Shown here one piece after another: positions 4,838 through 62,349 of a stretch of 64,000 bases of DNA. A model generated the notes under the pieces. That model was not told where the DNA came from. It made no database searches and saw only the letters and a program-made list of their open reading frames with translations. The stretch's first letter is position 1. Each line of letters starts with the position of its first letter. The stretch spans positions 1 through 64,000 of the forward strand of contig CAMPDV010001262.1 of NCBI GenBank assembly GCA_946699065.1. Reading direction: 5' to 3'. The position numbers were made by a program, and so were the translations under genes. Source of the DNA: Loxodes magnus. Lineage: Eukaryota > Ciliophora > Karyorelictea > Loxodida > Loxodidae.

Positions 4838-7800
4838 CTTTATAAATGTTTGGGTTGCGAAGAAACCCAAATAAAAGATCTAAATTTTGAAAATTAAATT
4901 GCTTAAGATTTTAAAAATAGTTTAAAAATAAAAATTGTAAATTATGTAATGCAAAAATGATTTTAAATTATGATAATAAATATAAAAAGTGTTCAAATAA
5001 AAATTGCTAATAAATCTTCTTTTTTAACTTTGGTAAAGAAAATAACATGATATCATTGAAATTTTTTTAGAATTAGGATATTTAAATCAAATTGAGTAAT
5101 TATTAATTGCTTGAAGCGATTCGTAATTACAAAAAGTTTTTTAAGATTATTTAATCTAATAAAATAATGGCAAATTTTAACAATTAATAAAAATTTATTT
5201 ACCTTATCAAAAAATTTGCCACATAATTTAGACGAAATAGAAATTTTATAAATTATTGCAGGAAAATATTAATAAACTTATAAAATGGATATCAGTTGAT
5301 AAAAATTAGAATAATTAAGCTATTAATAAATAAAAAATAATAAATCATTTTAAGATTAAGTTTTTAACTAGAATTTTATAAACCTTTTAAAAATTAATAG
5401 TTAGTAATTATTAGGTTAAAGTATTTTTTTTGAACAAAAAATAAGATTGTGACCAAAGTTAATAATTAATAAAATAATATTAAAATTTTTAAGAACAAAA
5501 AGAAGAATTAAAATTTTAAACATTCAAATATATTAAATAGATTTAGAATTTAATTTAAATTTTAAGGCTAAATATAGTTAATTGAAAGTAAAAAAATAAG
5601 TATCAGATAAAAGAATGAATCAGTTTAAAATATTAACTAAATAAAAGAAAAAATAGAGAAAGATTAAGAATAAAAAATAACTAAAGCTCATAAAATATTA
5701 TGTTAACAGAAAAAATAATCAAATTAATTAAAATTTAGTGCATAACATTTAAGAGAATAAAATAAAATAATCAACTCATAAAGAAACGGTATAAATTTTG
5801 GTTAATTAATTTCAACTAAAAAATTTTTGGACCGGAAACTCCTTTCCGATTGCACGACCCGACGCTATCTTTTTATGGAATAACAGGGATATCCTGTTGT
5901 GCTCCAGGCACAGCTGCTAGGGAGCTCCATCGCTATGAGCAGCCAGGCTTCAAGCCCCTACCAAGAGCGGATAATCTCAAAGATAACGTTCCCTTCAGAA
6001 AATGACTCTGACCAGAAACTTTCTCAGCGACAGGAAAGGAACTTCTTCCTAGCCATAAAACCAGAAAGTTTAGTCACGAAGGTCATTTTCAACTCCCACC
6101 ATCTTTTCAATTATTTAAATTTTGGTTAATTTGCAGCTAAAGCAACAATTATTAATTAAGTTGGATTAAAAAATTTATAAAAGATCAAATAAAGTTTTTT
6201 GTCTGAATAAGAATAATTAAATTTTTAAAATTAAAAAGCAATTTTTTCGACATAAAATATAGCAACAATATTATTTCCTTCTATAAGGATAAGGAGACCC
6301 GATTAGTTAAAATAGATTAATAGAAGTTGATTATTTGGAGGCATTTAATCATTTAATTCTATTTAATTTCTAAATTAATAATAAAAATACCTTTAGGATT
6401 AAATTTACTTAAAATTATAGATTTTTGTAACTTTTTTAATTTTAAGCATAACTGAATGATCTAAAAACATTTGAGTTTATATTTTAAAACATAATAATTA
6501 AATTAAGATTTTACACTGGAATAACTTAAGTAATTATTAAAATAAGATTTTAGAAAATATTCTAATTAAATTTTTAGTTATAAAAATATAATTTTAGGAA
6601 GTAAAAATTTCTGGAAAGTGAAAAATATCGAACTAATGTAATTTTAAAAAGTAAAATGAACTTCAACTTTATTTATTACATTGACAATTGCTAATTCATG
6701 ATAATCTTTTTTATTTATAAATGTTTTTAGTTTAAATAAAATTTAATAAGAAATAATTACAAAAAAATAAATATTTTAATTAACTTAAAATAATCTGGTG
6801 AGTAAAAAGATTATAGCATTCGGGAATAATGCGAAATTTAGATAAAAGAAAACATTATAATTGTTCTCACTAAATAATAAAATTAAATTGAGAAAACATA
6901 AAATAGATAAATTTTAAAAAAATGAAGAAAATACATGAATTTTAACAATAATTAAACTGCAATGATTATAATTAAATTGATAATAATTCTTTGATTTTAA
7001 GAAAAACAATTATCGATTACTATGCTTAAAGAATGTAAACTTAATATATACCAACTTAATTTAAAAATTCTTAAAAATTTACAAGTTTAGAACAAATGAC
7101 ATGTTACGAGTTTTGTATAAACTTTAAATTAAAAAATAAAAAATAGTATAAAGAAAAAAAATTGTTGATAAAATAATAGTGCTACCTATGCCGTATATTT
7201 AAGAAAATAATAGTGATTGTCATGCTAAAAATTAAATAGATTAAAGAAATATGTTATTATTTAAAGCTTGAAAACTACAAAATTGTTAAAATTTATATGA
7301 AAATATTAATTTAACTAATAATTAAAAATTTAATTATGAAGCTAATATGAAAATAGTCAGTAGTTTTAATAATTTAAGTTCAATTATCCATATCTATTTT
7401 AAACATAATATTAAAATTTTGTATAAAAACCATTTAAAAATATTTGTAAAAAAGTAGAAGAAAATACCTAATAGAAAAAGATTTGATGGATGAAGAAAAG
7501 TTAGAAAATTTTTTAATATGCTCTGAATTTTAAAATTTTTATTTGAAACTATCAAAATAAGTAAATGAGGAAAAACATAATATGATTACGAAAAAATGCT
7601 TAAAAAATAAAATTGAATTTAAAAATAGAAAAATAATTAATAAAGTTAACTTAATTTCAAGTAGAAGACATAATAACATTATCAGAAAGTTAATAACTCA
7701 TAATATATTTAAAAATGCATATAAAATAAAATTTAATGTAAATTAGTATTACTAGGATCTGCTGGTACTGGAAAATGTTTTTAAACTAAATAAATAGAAT

Positions 7801-9560
7801 AAATTTTATTGAAAAATGAACTAATAAAATATGCAAAAACTAGTAAAGCTTCAAAAATAATTGATGGAGTTACTGTATATTTTTTATTTAATCTGCTAAT
7901 AAGTTGTAAATTTAAAGATTTAACATAAAAAGTAATTAACGAAAAATAAAATTAACTAAAAAATATAAATTGAATAATAATAGATGAAATAAGCAAGCTC
8001 AGTAATAATGATTATAAATTGAAAAAAGACTATAATAAATAAATTAAAACGAAAAATAATACGGAGGCTTTAATATAATTTTTGTATCAAATTTTTGATC
8101 AGTTAGCTAAAGGTAAGTAAATATTCTCAATAAAATAAAATTAAAAAAAGCAAAAAGATAAAAATGGATTAATTTAATTAAAAAAAATAAATGTGTAGTA
8201 TTTCTAGAATAATAACTGCGATAAAAGGATTAAATTTTTATAACAAATCTTTAACAAGAAATGGTGAAGTTGATAAAGAATTATATAATTATTTATAAGA
8301 AAGATTTTAGCAAATACTTAATTTAGAAGAAGTTTAAACTAAAACTTGTGTTTTTAGTACGAGAAAGGAAACATAATCTCATAATTTAAAATTTTATAAA
8401 GTTTAAATAAATCTGTTTTTTGTATCGAATCTGAAATATAAAGGCAAAATTTAAATGAATTATTAAAATTAAATAAAAGGACTTGAAAAATATTTATTTT
8501 TAAGTATTAATGCTTTAATTATGCTAACTGAAAATTTAAATACTAAATCTGGATTAATAAATGGAGCCACAAATTTCATAAGAGATATTACTTGATAGGA
8601 TAAAGACCAGTTTCAACATTAATTACTAATATGTCAATTAATATAATTTTAAATTATAAAGGCACATAAAATAATTAACTAATTAAAAAAAAGAATTTAA
8701 TAATTTGGTACGCATATTTTTGTAAAATAGAGCTTTAAACTCGATGACATTTAGGATCATAGAAAATAATTTCCTTTAATATTATGCTATGCATAAACTA
8801 TTCATAAATTTTAAGGAACTACTATTGAAAAAAATGTTTCATTTATATTGGAAACAAAGAGTTCAGTACAGGTTTAAAAGCTTTTACAATTAAAAGAATT
8901 TACGTTTAAAAGACTTTTAAACATAAAAAATACGAAAAACTTTGATTAGAGAATTTAATTAAGAAATCAATATATGAAATTAGAAAATAACTTTATAGAA
9001 ATAATTAAATAATTAAAAATTTAAGAATATTATAACTTTAAATAATCCTTTTTTCTATAATTATGGAATTATAAACAACATTACAATGATCATATAAATT
9101 AGTAAAAATAGGTAAGTTAATATGAAAAAACTACAATAACTTATAAAAATGAAGATTATTGCTTTTATAAAAGAGAGTTAAAAAAAGGAACTAATAAATT
9201 TAGAAGAATATTTAAATTATAAAAAGAAAAGGAAGATGATATAGACTTTTTAAAGACTTTAACTAAAGCCAATAAAAGATAGAGTTTCTTAAAAAATAAT
9301 GCTAAAATTTGAGTATAGAATCTGAAGTCGTATAAGAATAATGTCTTTAAAAAAACAAATATTTAAAAAGATAAAAATGTATATAAAAAAGAATGTCAAG
9401 ATGTTAATAATGAAAATGATTGAGAATAATATAATAAAGAAACAAATAAACTAACAATAATAATAGTAACTAGAAAGTAAAGAAAATTAATTTATAAGAT
9501 TTTATAATCCAAATTCTTGATGCTGATTAAATTCGTTTATCGCAATTCTATACAAATTAG
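4838..9560 (+). pseudogene. Helitron-like zinc finger / Pif1-family helicase gene, decayed (left arm)
   Basis: Order along the strand: a Cys-pair finger region (4838-5030, 'YKCLGCEE...CKLC'); a motif 'TLFITLTIANSW' at 6666-6701, like the N-terminal domain of Helitron-type proteins; then a Pif1-type helicase. The helicase has Walker A GSAGTGKC at 7755, Walker B 'IIIDEISKLS' near 7977, 'ALIMLTEN...GLINGA' at 8515-8565 and 'CYAQTIHKFQGTT' at 8785-8824. In Pif1 enzymes these bind ATP and drive 5'-3' DNA unwinding. Zinc finger, replication-like N domain and Pif1 helicase in one ~4.7 kb unit is the Helitron RepHel plan, but I could not find a clear HUH (His-x-His) motif. At least one frameshift lies between 7985 and 8515, TGA codons interrupt it, and a 294 bp GC-rich insertion splits it at 5828. 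Helicase identification is firm; Helitron is an inference. Confidence 0.6.
5828..6121. other. GC-rich insertion (~294 bp), left arm only
   Basis: Base composition jumps from about 20% to about 50% G+C over this stretch, then drops back. The right arm has no insertion at the matching place. On the minus strand a short reading from 'ATGGTGGGAGTTG' gives a few dozen plausible residues before a TGA; on the plus strand there is a 76-codon standard ORF (5899-6129). I cannot assign either, and I see no RNA polymerase III box that would make it a typical SINE. Confidence 0.5.
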
Positions 9561-56206: not shown

Positions 56207-59200
56207 ATGGAAAATAATTAAAAATCGCTAATTTAAACTCTTAGCGACTCTTCTTTATCTAACAATAAAGAAGCTGTGATCTTATAAAAAAAGCATAGGC
56301 AGATGTTTACACCTTCATAAATCTAGAATTTGGAAACGCTACAACTGAAGTAAATAAAATGAATAGCCAATTTAATAAGATAAATACTAAAACAATGTAG
56401 CTAATAGACAATAAATACTTTTCTTAGGGTTCCACTAAGATAACTTAAATAATCCTTGGAGCGATGTCACCAGATGAAGCACACTTTAAAAGTTGAGAAA
56501 TATACTTATCAAAAGAAAGCAAATTTTGCAGCCACAATTTAATAAAAGGTATCAAAAATATCTTCAGGAAATTTAAATATTTTAGGGATTAATAAAGATA
56601 TTTAAGATACAAAAAATACTTTAAATAATCAAAATGAAAATAATAACGGATCTATAAAATGATCCATATTTACTTAAAACTTAGAGTATAATCATGTATA
56701 GTACTCAAATTATAAATTCAACAATCTTTTAAGCCAAAAGAATTAAGAAAATTAAAATATAAAAAATCTAAATAATTTTGAAATCAAAAACATATAACTT
56801 TAAGCCTAACTTACTGAAGTAAAGGATCAAATGTAATCCTAGGAATAAGAGTTTGAAACTAGTAAAAAATAGTTCTTAAATTAGATTAAAGAACTTGAAT
56901 AATAAATATAAAATCTATCAAATAATCAAATTATTTTTAATTAAAATTTTCTATCAGCTTAAGAAAATCAGAATCAAACTAATTAAAGGATTATAAGTAA
57001 GTATGAAGCAGTAATAGAATAGTACAAAATGTATGTAAATAAAACTTTCAAGAAATTAAAGAAAATGTAAAATGTAAAATTAAATATTAAAATCTAATTA
57101 CTATAAGTAATAACTATAGTTTAAATATAATTAATTAATTTTTGAAAAAAAGCAAAATAAATCTAAAGAGATAGGAATTTAAACAGATTGTATTTCTCAA
57201 TATAATAGTTAAACTGCATAAACTGATGAAATTAATTAAATCTATTAAATAGATAAATTTTAAGAGTAGTTTAGAAGTCATTCATTAGTTCCTTAAAAAT
57301 CAAATTAATCTTCAATAATCATTTAAAATTCTTCGACATAAACTAGCTCTTATGAATTCTTGTATATGTCTTAATCTAGTTCATAGGATGTTTTAGAAGA
57401 ACTTGAGCTATATAAAAAATAATTATCTAAATTTGATTACATTTAGTAATTATATTACGAAATCGCTTAGTAAAAGAATACTATTGGGTTTGAATTATTG
57501 GAAGCTAAAGCCCAAAACCAATAGATGATAATTTAAAATTAATGACTTATAAATAAAGACTAATAACTATAAAAACAGCTAATAACTTTAAATAATCAGC
57601 TAAAAATATAAAATTAGTAGAATTTGAAATAAAACATGGAGTTTCAAGAAGAATTATAATAGAAAGATATGGAATTCCAAATATTGATATCTTAAAAGCA
57701 TAATGAAATTGAACACTTAAAAAGTTGTAATATATAATAACTACTAACCATAGAAAAATGTAATATAGACATATAAAAACAATATTATCTCAAACTTTAA
57801 TAAACAGCAGAAAATTCTACTTAAAGAGAATTACTAAGCTAAAATAAATAAATTTAGACAGATTAAAACCTTTAAATAAAATGTAATGTAGAAAATAAAA
57901 TTATCTAAACAATTAATTTATAATAAGATTAGGAAATTTAAGTTTAATGATAGCATTAAGAAGTTGAAGTTAACACTGAAAAATTGGAATAAAGTTAAAA
58001 ATTTTGTCAAACAAACTTTATAGATATAAATCACTAAAAACTTCAATAAACATATCATTTCCTTAATATGGAATTTATTTTAAATACCTAGAATAACTTA
58101 GAAAACTAGAAGAAATTATATTAAGAAAATAAGAAATTAACATCTAGTACAATAAAAATTGAATAATAAAATCAATTTTGCTAGACAAGTTTGCTTGATG
58201 AGAATTATATAAAACTCCAGTAATTCTTTCATTAGCTAAATATGAACTTCATTTGTAACAATTAAAAGTTTGAGTAAAACTTAAGAAAATAGTAAGAAAT
58301 TAATGAATAATTAACGAAAGAATTATTTTATCTAAAAACCAAGCCTTGATAAAAAGATTAAATGAGCTAAGCAAACATTAATTATATTGAAAACTAGAAT
58401 CGCACTGTTATCAAGTAATAAAATCCTTTCAAAAGAAAACATGAAGAAGATGGAATTTAAATTCCTCCAGCAAAACGCACTATTAAATGAAAAAATGAAA
58501 GAGGAAGTGAAAAGATAATACGATAATAAAATTTTCAATCTCCTCAACTATAAAACTTTATCAGACAAGGTTCGTGAAGGAGGAACTCATATTAAATAAG
58601 CAATTTTCAAGTTTTGAGGAAGTATCGAAGCTTTAAAATGAGAGATAAAAGAAGGATGATATATAACAATTAATAAGAATTAACTCAAGGCACTGTAGAT
58701 AGTAACTAAAATGTTATTAAAATAGACAATAAACTACTAGAATCTAATTCGATTTAAGTAATTTACATTTTGATCTAATATTTCCACCAACATCCTGAGT
58801 ATAAAAAAGAACTGGTACATATTTAATGAGATTCATAAGGGATTAAATATATTTGCATATATTAGGGAGGGTTCCTTGGTGGAGCGCAAAAATCTAAGAA
58901 AATAAAAATAGGACATGTAAATATAAGCTCAATAGCTAGTAAACAAACGGCATTATAATAATTCATCCTTGATAATGAATTTGACATTTTTTCAATAAAC
59001 GAAACATGAACATAATAAACATATTGCCCAATTGTTATAGAACAATATCGTACCTATTACTAAAACGCAAATAAACTTGCTGTTGGATATGTCTATTAGT
59101 AAAAAAGTAACTTGATTCTTGTTAAAATGAATTAGATTTCTCAAATCTTCCTGGACATTTTATAAGCGTGAGAGTTGGAAATTTAATAATTGCATCATGT

Positions 59201-62200
59201 TATTTGCCTACAAATGAAAAGTAAAATATTTATAAGGACATTGCATATGAATACCTTAACAATATCATAAAAAATAGAGACCAAAACCCTAATATACTTT
59301 GTGGCGACTTTAATGCCTTAATTCCTAACTATGGTAATAATTCATCACAAATCAATAATAATACTTAAAAATTACTAGACTTTATAGAAGCAAATTAATT
59401 AATAATTTTAAATGGTTAAGAGTCCAACACATTTATTCATAGAGCGAATAATTAATGCTATTGTAATGACTATTTCTTGGCAACTTAACATTTAAATTCT
59501 GATGATTTCGTTGATTATAAAGATATCCAAGATTCGGGTTTGTATACTGATCTTTTTGATTAAGTATTAAATTAAATTATAATTTAAAAAGAAGTGAATA
59601 AGATTAAGAATAACGATTATTCTTTAAAATTTCTAAACTATAGGATTTGGACACAAGAAACTATTATTAAAATCTATTTTTGGGATAATTTTATCAATTC
59701 TAGTAACTTGATTAAAACGATGTTGAAAATTAGTATAAATTCAACTGAGATCTTATTTTTATAATGCGAAGATTGCGCTTGGATCTTAAAATAAAAGAAA
59801 ATCTATTATAAATTACCAAGTTACTTAGTTATGTTATTTGTTCAAGCAAAAAAGGATAATATTGCATATTAGAACCCATTAGCTTTGTATGGATATCATA
59901 ATTAAGAAGTTGCCAAACTTTACTAGCTTAAAATTTAATCTTATATGCATTATCTTCACAAATTTTGGAATAAAAAAAATAAAAAGCTAAGGAAAAACAT
60001 AAAAATCTTAACAAAAATGCTTAAATAATGTTTAAACAAGCTAAGAATCTAATAAACTAAAAAATTCGTAATTAGATGAATTTTAACTTTAACTAACAAC
60101 AGCAATTTATTGAAAATTGGAAAACTAACGTTTTTGATAAATATTCGAAAATAAGTAAGATAGATTTTGTCTTCTCAAATAGAAAAATAGAGGGAATATT
60201 TAGAAATAAATCTTTTATCTTAAATTAGAAATTAAGTCATTTATAAAATACGCCTCTTTTTACGTGGTTTGAAATTAAAAAAATTATATCTTAGCTTGCA
60301 AATAATAAAGCTACAGGTAATGATGGTCTAAAAGCTGAACTTATTAAATATGGAGGTTAAGATTTGCATCAAAATATAACAAATTTCATTAATAACATGC
60401 TTAGAACATTCAAAATACCTAATGCGATGAAAAAAATAAACATTCTTCCGATTTTCAAAAAAGGAAGCAAAAGTAATTGATGTAATTGAAGACCTATAGT
60501 TTTATTGAACTGTCTACTTAAAAGTTATGATAAAGCACTAACATAACGACTTTATAATTATATTTATGAACAAAACATTTTACATCCAGCCTAATTTGGA
60601 TTTATTCGTAAACGCTCTACTACTTAGCAAATTTGAACTATTTAGTAAATTATAGACTTGCATCGTAGATGGTCTCATAAAAAGTAATTAATTGCTACTT
60701 TAATAGATGTAGAAAAAATGTTTGATAGCATATCTAGGAAATTACTTTTTGATCATCTTAAAAGACTTAGGCTACCTTTGGACCTAATATTGGCACTAGA
60801 ATCTTTTTACGATAATGTTGATGCTAAATTTATAATTGATTTATATCTTACAAAAACAATTAAATATAACAATGGAGTATTATAAGGAAGTAGCCATGCA
60901 CCTGTACTTGCAATTTTATACTATGATATTGTTATAAGATATTTAGAAGATAATCAGAAGAAATTAGGATTTCAAATATTATCTAAAACTTTCGTTGTAC
61001 GAGCCTTTGCTGACGAATTAATCCAAATATCCTCTTCCTAGAAAAATGCCTAAAAATTATTACAAGCTACATCTACAGTTTTTGATTGAGCAAAACTTAC
61101 AATTAATGTAGCCAAATGTGAAGTAATAGAATTCTTGAAAAAAAATCAATGAAAAGAAAGCTAACCTTCTATTAATATAAAGCTCAATGGGATTCCACTT
61201 ACTTAAAAAGATGAAGTTACCTATTTAGGATATTAGTTAGGAATAAAATAAAATTACAAATTACATTGTAAAGAAGTAGCTACCAAACACAGAGTAGCTA
61301 TTTAAAAAGCTACTGCAATATTTTCTAAATATGTTTTAGTATCCCCTCTCAGCTTCAAAACTCTTTGTAGAACTTTTATTTTGCCTAAAGTTTAATATGG
61401 AAGTGATATTACTCCGTAAGCTACTATTTCTGGAATTAAAGGAATAAAAAGCAAGATAGCAAAATTGTAAAGGCTTATCTCAAGATAGGCGTTTAGATCT
61501 TAAGAATTCACATTCAATGAGTCATGCTTTATTGACCTAAATTGGCTTCCTTTTACACATATAGCAACTCAAAATTTAATGCACTTTTATTAAAAATTAA
61601 TGTAATATAGCAAAGAAAATCCTAACTCGGATACTGCTTTTCTATTAGAAAAATGCACTAAATTTAATTTACCATACTAGAAACATATAAAGAAATGTAT
61701 CGATTTGTATAATTTTGACATTTCACATGTTTAGAATAATATGGATTTTTATAAACTCACGGAATAAAAAATAAAGCATAAATTCTTAATGGAATGTCTC
61801 TCTAGAAATACACTTATGACAACAGCAAAAAGAATTACAGACTAAATAGAAAATAATTAAAGTGTATTTCCTGAAATTACTTACACCAAATATAATAAAT
61901 ACTATATTAGAGAGACTATTTCCATCTATAAACTAAGGAATTTTTCTTATAATTTTCAATAAGAGTTCAGTAATCGCTACATTAACGTTAGATATAGCAT
62001 TATTTGCTTATGTGGCTAAGATTTTGATGAAACTGATCTTATTTTTTATTGCTAATAAAATGCAGACATTATTGAGGAACTTGAAAGTCATAAAGCTTTT
62101 AAAGAAAAAGACAAAAAGAAACTAATTCTTTATGACTAAAACTATATAAACAAACATTTTTCTAAAAATCAAATTCCTAAAATAGACAAATTAATCAAAA

Positions 62201-62349
62201 ATTTTCATTCTAAATTACTAAAAAAGCGTATTGAAATGTTTGAACTACAAGATGAGCTTTTAGAAGAGTTTCTAGAAGGAAAAAAAGACAAATTTCATCA
62301 AGACAATAAATAAAAATATATGATAGAGAAAGAACAAGAAGAAGCTTGA
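56207..62349 (+). pseudogene. LINE-type retrotransposon: coiled coil + AP endonuclease + reverse transcriptase + Cys-rich tail
   Basis: ATG at 56207 starts about 2,045 codons, in phase except for three one-base shifts near 57060, 59130 and in an A-run near 59975. In order: an N-terminal region; a long Gln-rich coiled coil (about 57.1-58.4 kb); a basic stretch; an AP-type endonuclease with 'SINETW' at 58993 and 'CGDFNA' at 59300, but 'YTDLF' where SDH is expected; a reverse transcriptase with 'KATGNDGLKAEL', 'NWRPIVLLNC', 'PAQFGF', 'DVEKMFD' (60706), 'GVLQGS' and FADE (61006) in place of Y/F-A-D-D; and a tail with 'CLCGQDFDETDLIFYC'. It ends at TGA 62347. Such proteins nick DNA and copy their RNA into it. 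The altered endonuclease His and FADE suggest this copy is inactive. About fourteen TGAs occur, several at invariant Trp positions. The closest known relatives I can name are ciliate germline LINEs such as Tetrahymena REP, by architecture only. Confidence 0.85.

Follow-up and report, generated by a model that had tools for sequence, protein, structure and literature searches.

UGA as a tryptophan codon in host kinases and LINE families of a ciliate genome with short-stem tRNA-Trp genes

Introduction

A stretch of 64,000 nucleotides (G000:C1262:1-64000, hereafter the window) contains a long interspersed nuclear element (LINE) whose coding frames are interrupted by TGA triplets. The question raised by this locus is whether these TGAs are remnants of decay or sense codons. 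A sequence-only reading of the window had proposed that UAA and UAG encode Gln and UGA encodes Trp, because TGA appeared to occupy diagnostic Trp positions of the LINE. We followed up this proposal in the whole genome (705.73 Mb in 7843 contigs), the source of which is almost surely the karyorelict ciliate Loxodes, L. magnus.

The genome's code is already known (NCBI code 27). As published, the code of Loxodes has UAA and UAG for Gln, and UGA for Trp and as the only stop. Since every one of the three usual stops has an amino-acid meaning in this code, the odd TGAs of the mobile element are ordinary Trp codons. Our results support the proposed codon meanings, mainly through the host kinases, the exchange of TGA with TGG and the published Loxodes code. 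We are highly confident that the window is Loxodes nuclear DNA translated according to NCBI table 27, and that the decayed LINE copy uses the code of its host; a tRNA-Trp with a short anticodon stem probably acts together with an altered release factor eRF1.

Results

Tryptophan codons in host genes

The D-[VI]-W-S-x-G motif, in which we take the Trp to be a conserved kinase residue, was searched for as DNA throughout the genome, with the reversed pattern as a control. With TGA at the Trp position the motif occurs at 697 places as compared to 25 for the reversed pattern, and with TGG at 122 places as compared to none. It is important to note that the 697 places do not amount to a count of independent genes, as several of the listed matches lie close together on contig C152. 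Within this motif Trp seems to be spelled more often with TGA than with TGG. All eight TGA places that were examined match Pfam Pkinase above the cut-off when X is placed at the TGA. More specifically, in the kinase L074 the X faces Trp in both aligned PDB kinases at three TGAs, and the Trp of D-[VI]-W-S-x-G is W in both of these PDB chains. Translations were also compared by eye. All four CAMK-like kinases (L072-L075) use TGA for the Trp ahead of [VA]-S-x-x-AK, and for the Trp of H-x-W two of them use TGA and two TGG; the Trp of PW is TGA in both L069 and L070.

A host-type kinase domain lies in the window as well (about 1286-1846; PF00069, E 1e-36). It was rejected as a test of the code because there is no in-frame TGA inside the domain.

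Reverse transcriptases (RTs) of LINEs elsewhere in the genome are rich in TGA. The listed RVT_1 matches (150 scored of 3403 candidates) have between 3 and 9 TGAs in frame, and most of them have 6 to 9. We compared 29 sequences, namely the window copy, L001-L008 and 20 picked for diversity from the 150 matches, and they fall into four families: A (22 sequences), B (2), C (3) and D (2, the window copy and its sister L049). The RT of the window family is only 26-29% identical to those of the three other families. We considered the ten columns where TGA outnumbers every other codon in one or more of families A, B and C. At six of them nearly all copies of the three families have either TGA or TGG, and three of the six (columns 28, 69 and 218) show both codons. 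In the TGA-consensus columns of family A (176 cells), the departures are TGG twice, TTA twice, TAA twice, TGT once and six gaps. Thus, the assignment of UGA to Trp within genes is borne out both by the kinases and by the LINE families.

About 2,700 RVT_1 copies are given for L. magnus in print, as compared to the 3403 candidates here, which speaks for this species as the source. The published LINE families rnd-1_family-27 and rnd-1_family-19 carry RVT_1 and Exo_endo_phos_2 domains, as does the window element. At two places (G000:C5131:5395-26349 and C20:2028-7877) we observed RT-bearing units arranged head to tail every 2532 (or 2504) bases or so. Here, pieces of LINEs seem to have turned into satellite-like arrays.

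eRF1 and tRNA-Trp genes

An altered eRF1, one of the checks suggested by the sequence-only reading, was found. There are two eRF1 genes (L067 and L068), both on contig C196. Relative to human eRF1 (1dt9), L068 carries E55A, T58R, S60Q, S70A and Y125F, and the motifs of L067 are the same. The motifs RAQNIKS and FLCENTF together with Ala70 are identical to the Loxodes striatus row in Table 2 of PMC4695839. The catalytic Gln of the GGQ motif is encoded by TAA in both genes. Both genes end in TGA directly after the conserved end of the protein, and another in-frame TGA follows three codons on.

A tRNA-Trp-like pattern allowing either a CCA or a UCA anticodon gave 174 matches over the genome, and the 100 of these that were listed are all CCA. 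Among the best 100 of 380 looser matches to a UCA pattern, ordered by mismatches, there was no mismatch-free UCA match and all 100 are again CCA. ARAGORN identified at least 113 tRNA-Trp(CCA) genes with an anticodon stem of 4 bp, located in two tandem arrays. The array on contig C148 has 65 genes (66 by counting anticodon arms) with the stem TTCGA/TCGAC; the array on C67 has 48 genes by either count, with the stem ATCGA/TCGAC, and one of the 48 differs in the D arm. The 27-43 pair is broken in both arrays, as U.C in C148 and as A.C in C67, leaving 4 bp. Three single tRNA-Trp(CCA) genes on C110 have TTCGA/TCGAA and hence 5 bp, the pairs being read from the sequence. The acceptor, D and T arms of the C110 tRNA-Trp are nearly those of a tRNA-Met(CAT) about 700 bases away (L009:719-791 and L009:1494-1566), and it looks as if the anticodon arm alone differed.

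According to the sequence-only reading, finding tRNA-Trp with the CCA anticodon only would speak against the proposed code. All listed matches are indeed CCA, mostly with 4-bp stems. This does not refute the code, because a 4-bp anticodon stem is the published route by which a CCA tRNA-Trp can read UGA (PMC13092985, PMC12005148). The same two papers attribute a report of 4-bp-stem tRNA-Trp(CCA) in Loxodes to Swart et al. It is likely that the short-stem tRNA-Trp(CCA) is the UGA reader here, as experiments described in these papers for other species suggest. The large tandem-array layout of the short-stem genes was not met in the literature searched, which was partial and did not include the key paper.

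The LINE copy of the window

The element qualifies as a LINE by having both an RT and an endonuclease domain in the Pfam scan, though these lie in different frames of the window copy (Table 1). The 'ETW' motif that had been assigned to the endonuclease is in a third frame, apart from both. Sister copy L049 on contig C910 is 94.5% identical, and several single-base gaps separate the two. Because of these gaps and of the domains being in different frames, the window copy is decayed and not intact. The RT frame had been put at about 790 codons without an indel; the long open stretch is there, and its measured length is 762 codons. The RT catalytic motif (window 61006-61017) is FADE in the window copy and FADD in L049, which fits a dead copy.

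The TGAs noticed earlier at 59007, 60487, 60634, 61087 and 61150 are present in their frames, the four TGG codons of the RT frame were counted, and the TAA codons at 60592 and 60883 both correspond to invariant Gln residues. For evaluating the columns, 61 outside relatives were aligned with each TGA entered as X, which kept the reading of the codon from biasing the alignment. The claim that TGA sits at diagnostic Trp positions did not survive this comparison. Within the RT frame only 60487 is in a column where Trp is frequent, Tyr being more so, and the in-frame TGA at 60478, which falls in an I/P/L column, had been left out. Note that TGG in this frame is hardly better placed. Each of the five RT-frame TGAs is TGA in L049 too. 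Two codons involving TGA or TGG differ between the copies, TGG in the window being TGA in L049 at 60265 and TAA being TGA at 61417. As to the number of TGAs, five were observed where 9.1 (standard deviation 2.8) are expected from codon-position composition, and an excess of TGA in the RT frame was thereby rejected. In a profile built from the 61 relatives Trp is not among the best-scoring residues at the five TGAs of the window frame. Gln has the best score at TAA.

Columns, profile scores and TGA count together mean that the window LINE alone does not reveal the meaning of TGA, and it is weak evidence for the code. As a proof of the code it was rejected, given the lack of positive scores at the TGA cells of L001-L008 and, among the five RT-frame TGA columns of the window, only one with much Trp.

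Table 1. Coordinates of LINE features in the window and of the tRNA-Trp arrays elsewhere in the genome
Feature	Position	Strand	Remarks
TGA, third residue of endonuclease 'ETx'	59007..59009	+	column H4, W3 among 17 aligned relatives; compatible with Trp, not diagnostic
Exo_endo_phos_2 (LINE endonuclease) domain	59186..59503	+	PF14529, E 4.4e-10; frame differs from that of the RT
Stretch common to sister copy L049	59193..62486	+	94.5% identity; 62486 is approximately the 3' end of the element
RT reading frame	60061..62346	+	762 codons; 5 TGA, 4 TGG, 28 TAA, 10 TAG
TGG, TGA in sister L049	60265..60267	+	copy-to-copy comparison; copies 94.5% identical
TGA not noticed earlier, in frame	60478..60480	+	column I18 P16 L16 of 61; also in sister
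RVT_1 domain	60478..61239	+	PF00078, E 7.7e-29; LINE-1 ORF2p and R2 chains in PDB
TGA in N-x-RPI	60487..60489	+	column Y41 W17 of 61; also in sister
TAA at invariant Gln of QFGF	60592..60594	+	Q in 61/61
TGA, in frame	60634..60636	+	column R18 L14 I11 (61 relatives); also in sister
TAA at invariant Gln of LQGS	60883..60885	+	Q in 61/61
TGA, in frame (FDxAKL)	61087..61089	+	variable column, A11 first; also in sister
TGA, in frame (NQx)	61150..61152	+	variable column; also in sister
TGA, probable end of RT frame	62347..62349	+	in both copies; presumed stop; roughly 140 bases short of the element's 3' end
tRNA-Trp(CCA) tandem arrays	G000:C67:482300-491370 (L042, L043); G000:C148:155441-173050 (L039-L041)		periods about 187 and 241 bases

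Other observations

The G+C content of the window is 16-28% (2-kb steps). Pfam scans covered the window outside 20001-51999 and, apart from the LINE frames, outside 58003-62299. In the scanned parts the helicase suggested earlier was not confirmed, the AAA_19 match at about 7743-8027 being below the cut-off. A large imperfect palindrome occupies about 4556-51041 of the window, with arms at about 4.6-23.6 kb and 31.1-51.0 kb. Its mirror pieces are about 90-100% complementary, and direct repeats also occur, at spacings of about 6.35, 7.58 and 8.39 kb. The palindrome is either a natural structure or an assembly artefact.

Two host genes on contig C2 (L066, near 1762690 of G000:C2), presumably those of an aminotransferase and a Pelota-like protein, were looked at by eye. 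The first has TGA at the last W of GWKIGW, and the second has TGA at a place that is not known to be Trp.

Discussion

UGA is Trp in the host kinases, and UAR is Gln in this genome. Reading of UGA by the short-stem tRNA is what the array genes suggest, and position-dependent termination is taken from print. Regarding UAA and UAG, Gln is indicated by the TAA columns (61/61), by the profile and by the TAA of GGQ, TAG being less clear.

Several of our observations weigh against this assignment. All four Trp codons of the eRF1 genes are TGG, and use of TGA as a stop was observed only at the ends of these two genes. The confirmation of the kinases covers 8 of the 697 TGA places and none of the 122 TGG places. 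Moreover, N-terminal TGAs of L074, two by the first alignment and one by the second, do not face Trp. At four of the ten columns considered in the LINE families (183, 204, 243 and 270) the use of TGA or TGG does not extend to all three families. In the profile of 61 distant relatives no amino acid scored positive at the 129 TGA cells of L001-L008, which are roughly 16 columns in 8 near-identical copies; the 29 TGG cells of the same sequences score +46.7 for Trp. Finally, Gln is not the best residue at TAG in this profile, the best being K in L001-L008 and H in the window.

Could the TGAs of the window LINE have arisen by ordinary decay of a dead copy, in a genome where UGA serves only as a stop, as in a code of the Tetrahymena type? 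The copy is decayed, four of its six TGAs are outside Trp columns with a fifth doubtful, and TGA is not in excess, all in agreement with decay. However, all five RT-frame TGAs are common to the sister copy and in-frame TGAs occur in every one of the listed RVT_1 matches. The published Loxodes code gives UGA = Trp, and for the genome decay is refuted by the conserved Trp spelled TGA in host kinases, with 697 motif places against 25 and Pkinase matches in eight out of eight. We regard this explanation as scarcely tenable. The same can be said of a code like that of Condylostoma (table 28), where UAA and UAG can double as stops near transcript ends. The sense meanings of the two codes are identical, and in C. 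magnum all three codons serve as stops too (PMC4967479); the eRF1 motifs, however, point to Loxodes, where UGA is the only stop in print.

A different matter is whether UGA might be read by a cognate tRNA-Trp(UCA) instead of the short-stem CCA tRNA. The tRNA matches listed were 100 of 174 and the best 100 of 380, which leaves some room for such a gene. Yet all of those listed are CCA with no mismatch-free UCA match among them, at least 113 short-stem CCA genes are present, and the short-stem tRNA of Loxodes is credited to others in two papers (PMC13092985, PMC12005148). A cognate UCA tRNA is therefore unlikely.

In this code UAA and UAG are Gln, and UGA is Trp inside genes and a stop where the mRNA approaches its 3' end. 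Inside genes UGA would be read by tRNA-Trp(CCA), in which the 27.43 mismatch cuts the anticodon stem to 4 bp, and this reading may be helped by eRF1, whose stop-reading motifs are altered, Ser70 to Ala among the changes. A UGA close to the poly-A tail would lead to termination, as published. Both the depletion of UGA just before stops and the setting of the stop by nearness of poly-A have been published for L. magnus. Earlier print on the topic includes PMC11441545, and the karyorelict code is mentioned in PMC10553269.

It is conceivable, though we lean somewhat towards doubt, that UGA became the main Trp codon of Loxodes through multiplication of the short-stem tRNA-Trp(CCA) genes, judging from the arrays of at least 65 and at least 48 genes, the two 27.43 mismatches and the few single genes with 5 bp. 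If this is true, the balance between Trp and stop is set by the gene dosage of a near-cognate tRNA and not by a cognate one. The tRNA-Trp arrays, together with the abundance of TGA in kinases, offer a way into the question of how one entire codon can be served by a near-cognate tRNA. The raw sequence confirms that a mobile element follows the ambiguous code of its host, and a code of this kind is poorly attested by a single LINE copy.

Comparison with known codes

The karyorelict nuclear code of NCBI table 27 reportedly goes back to Swart et al. 2016 and Seah et al. 2022 and 2024, the original karyorelict paper being that of Seah in 2022. We found nothing differing from this table: UAA/UAG = Gln and UGA = Trp were tested in LINEs and kinases, and the eRF1 motifs are as in Loxodes. 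Such codes are described for Condylostoma and Parduczia in PMC4967479, where overall UGA usage in Parduczia is 0.120% of codons. The ratio of TGA to TGG in the kinase motif is 697 to 122 here, a measure not directly comparable with that overall usage.

At position 70 of eRF1 Blastocrithidia has Gly (Ser70Gly, reported in PMC12153298 along with its short-stem tRNA), while we find Ala. The likeness of the two systems extends to the 27.43 mismatch in tRNA-Trp(CCA), present here together with a substitution at residue 70 of eRF1 (human numbering).

The pairing of a short-stem tRNA-Trp(CCA) with an altered eRF1 is said to have been described by Kachale et al. 2023 in Blastocrithidia and Condylostoma. 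What differs in the present genome is that there are two different mismatches (A.C and U.C), that the short-stem genes form large tandem arrays, and that at least three copies with a 5-bp stem are located elsewhere.

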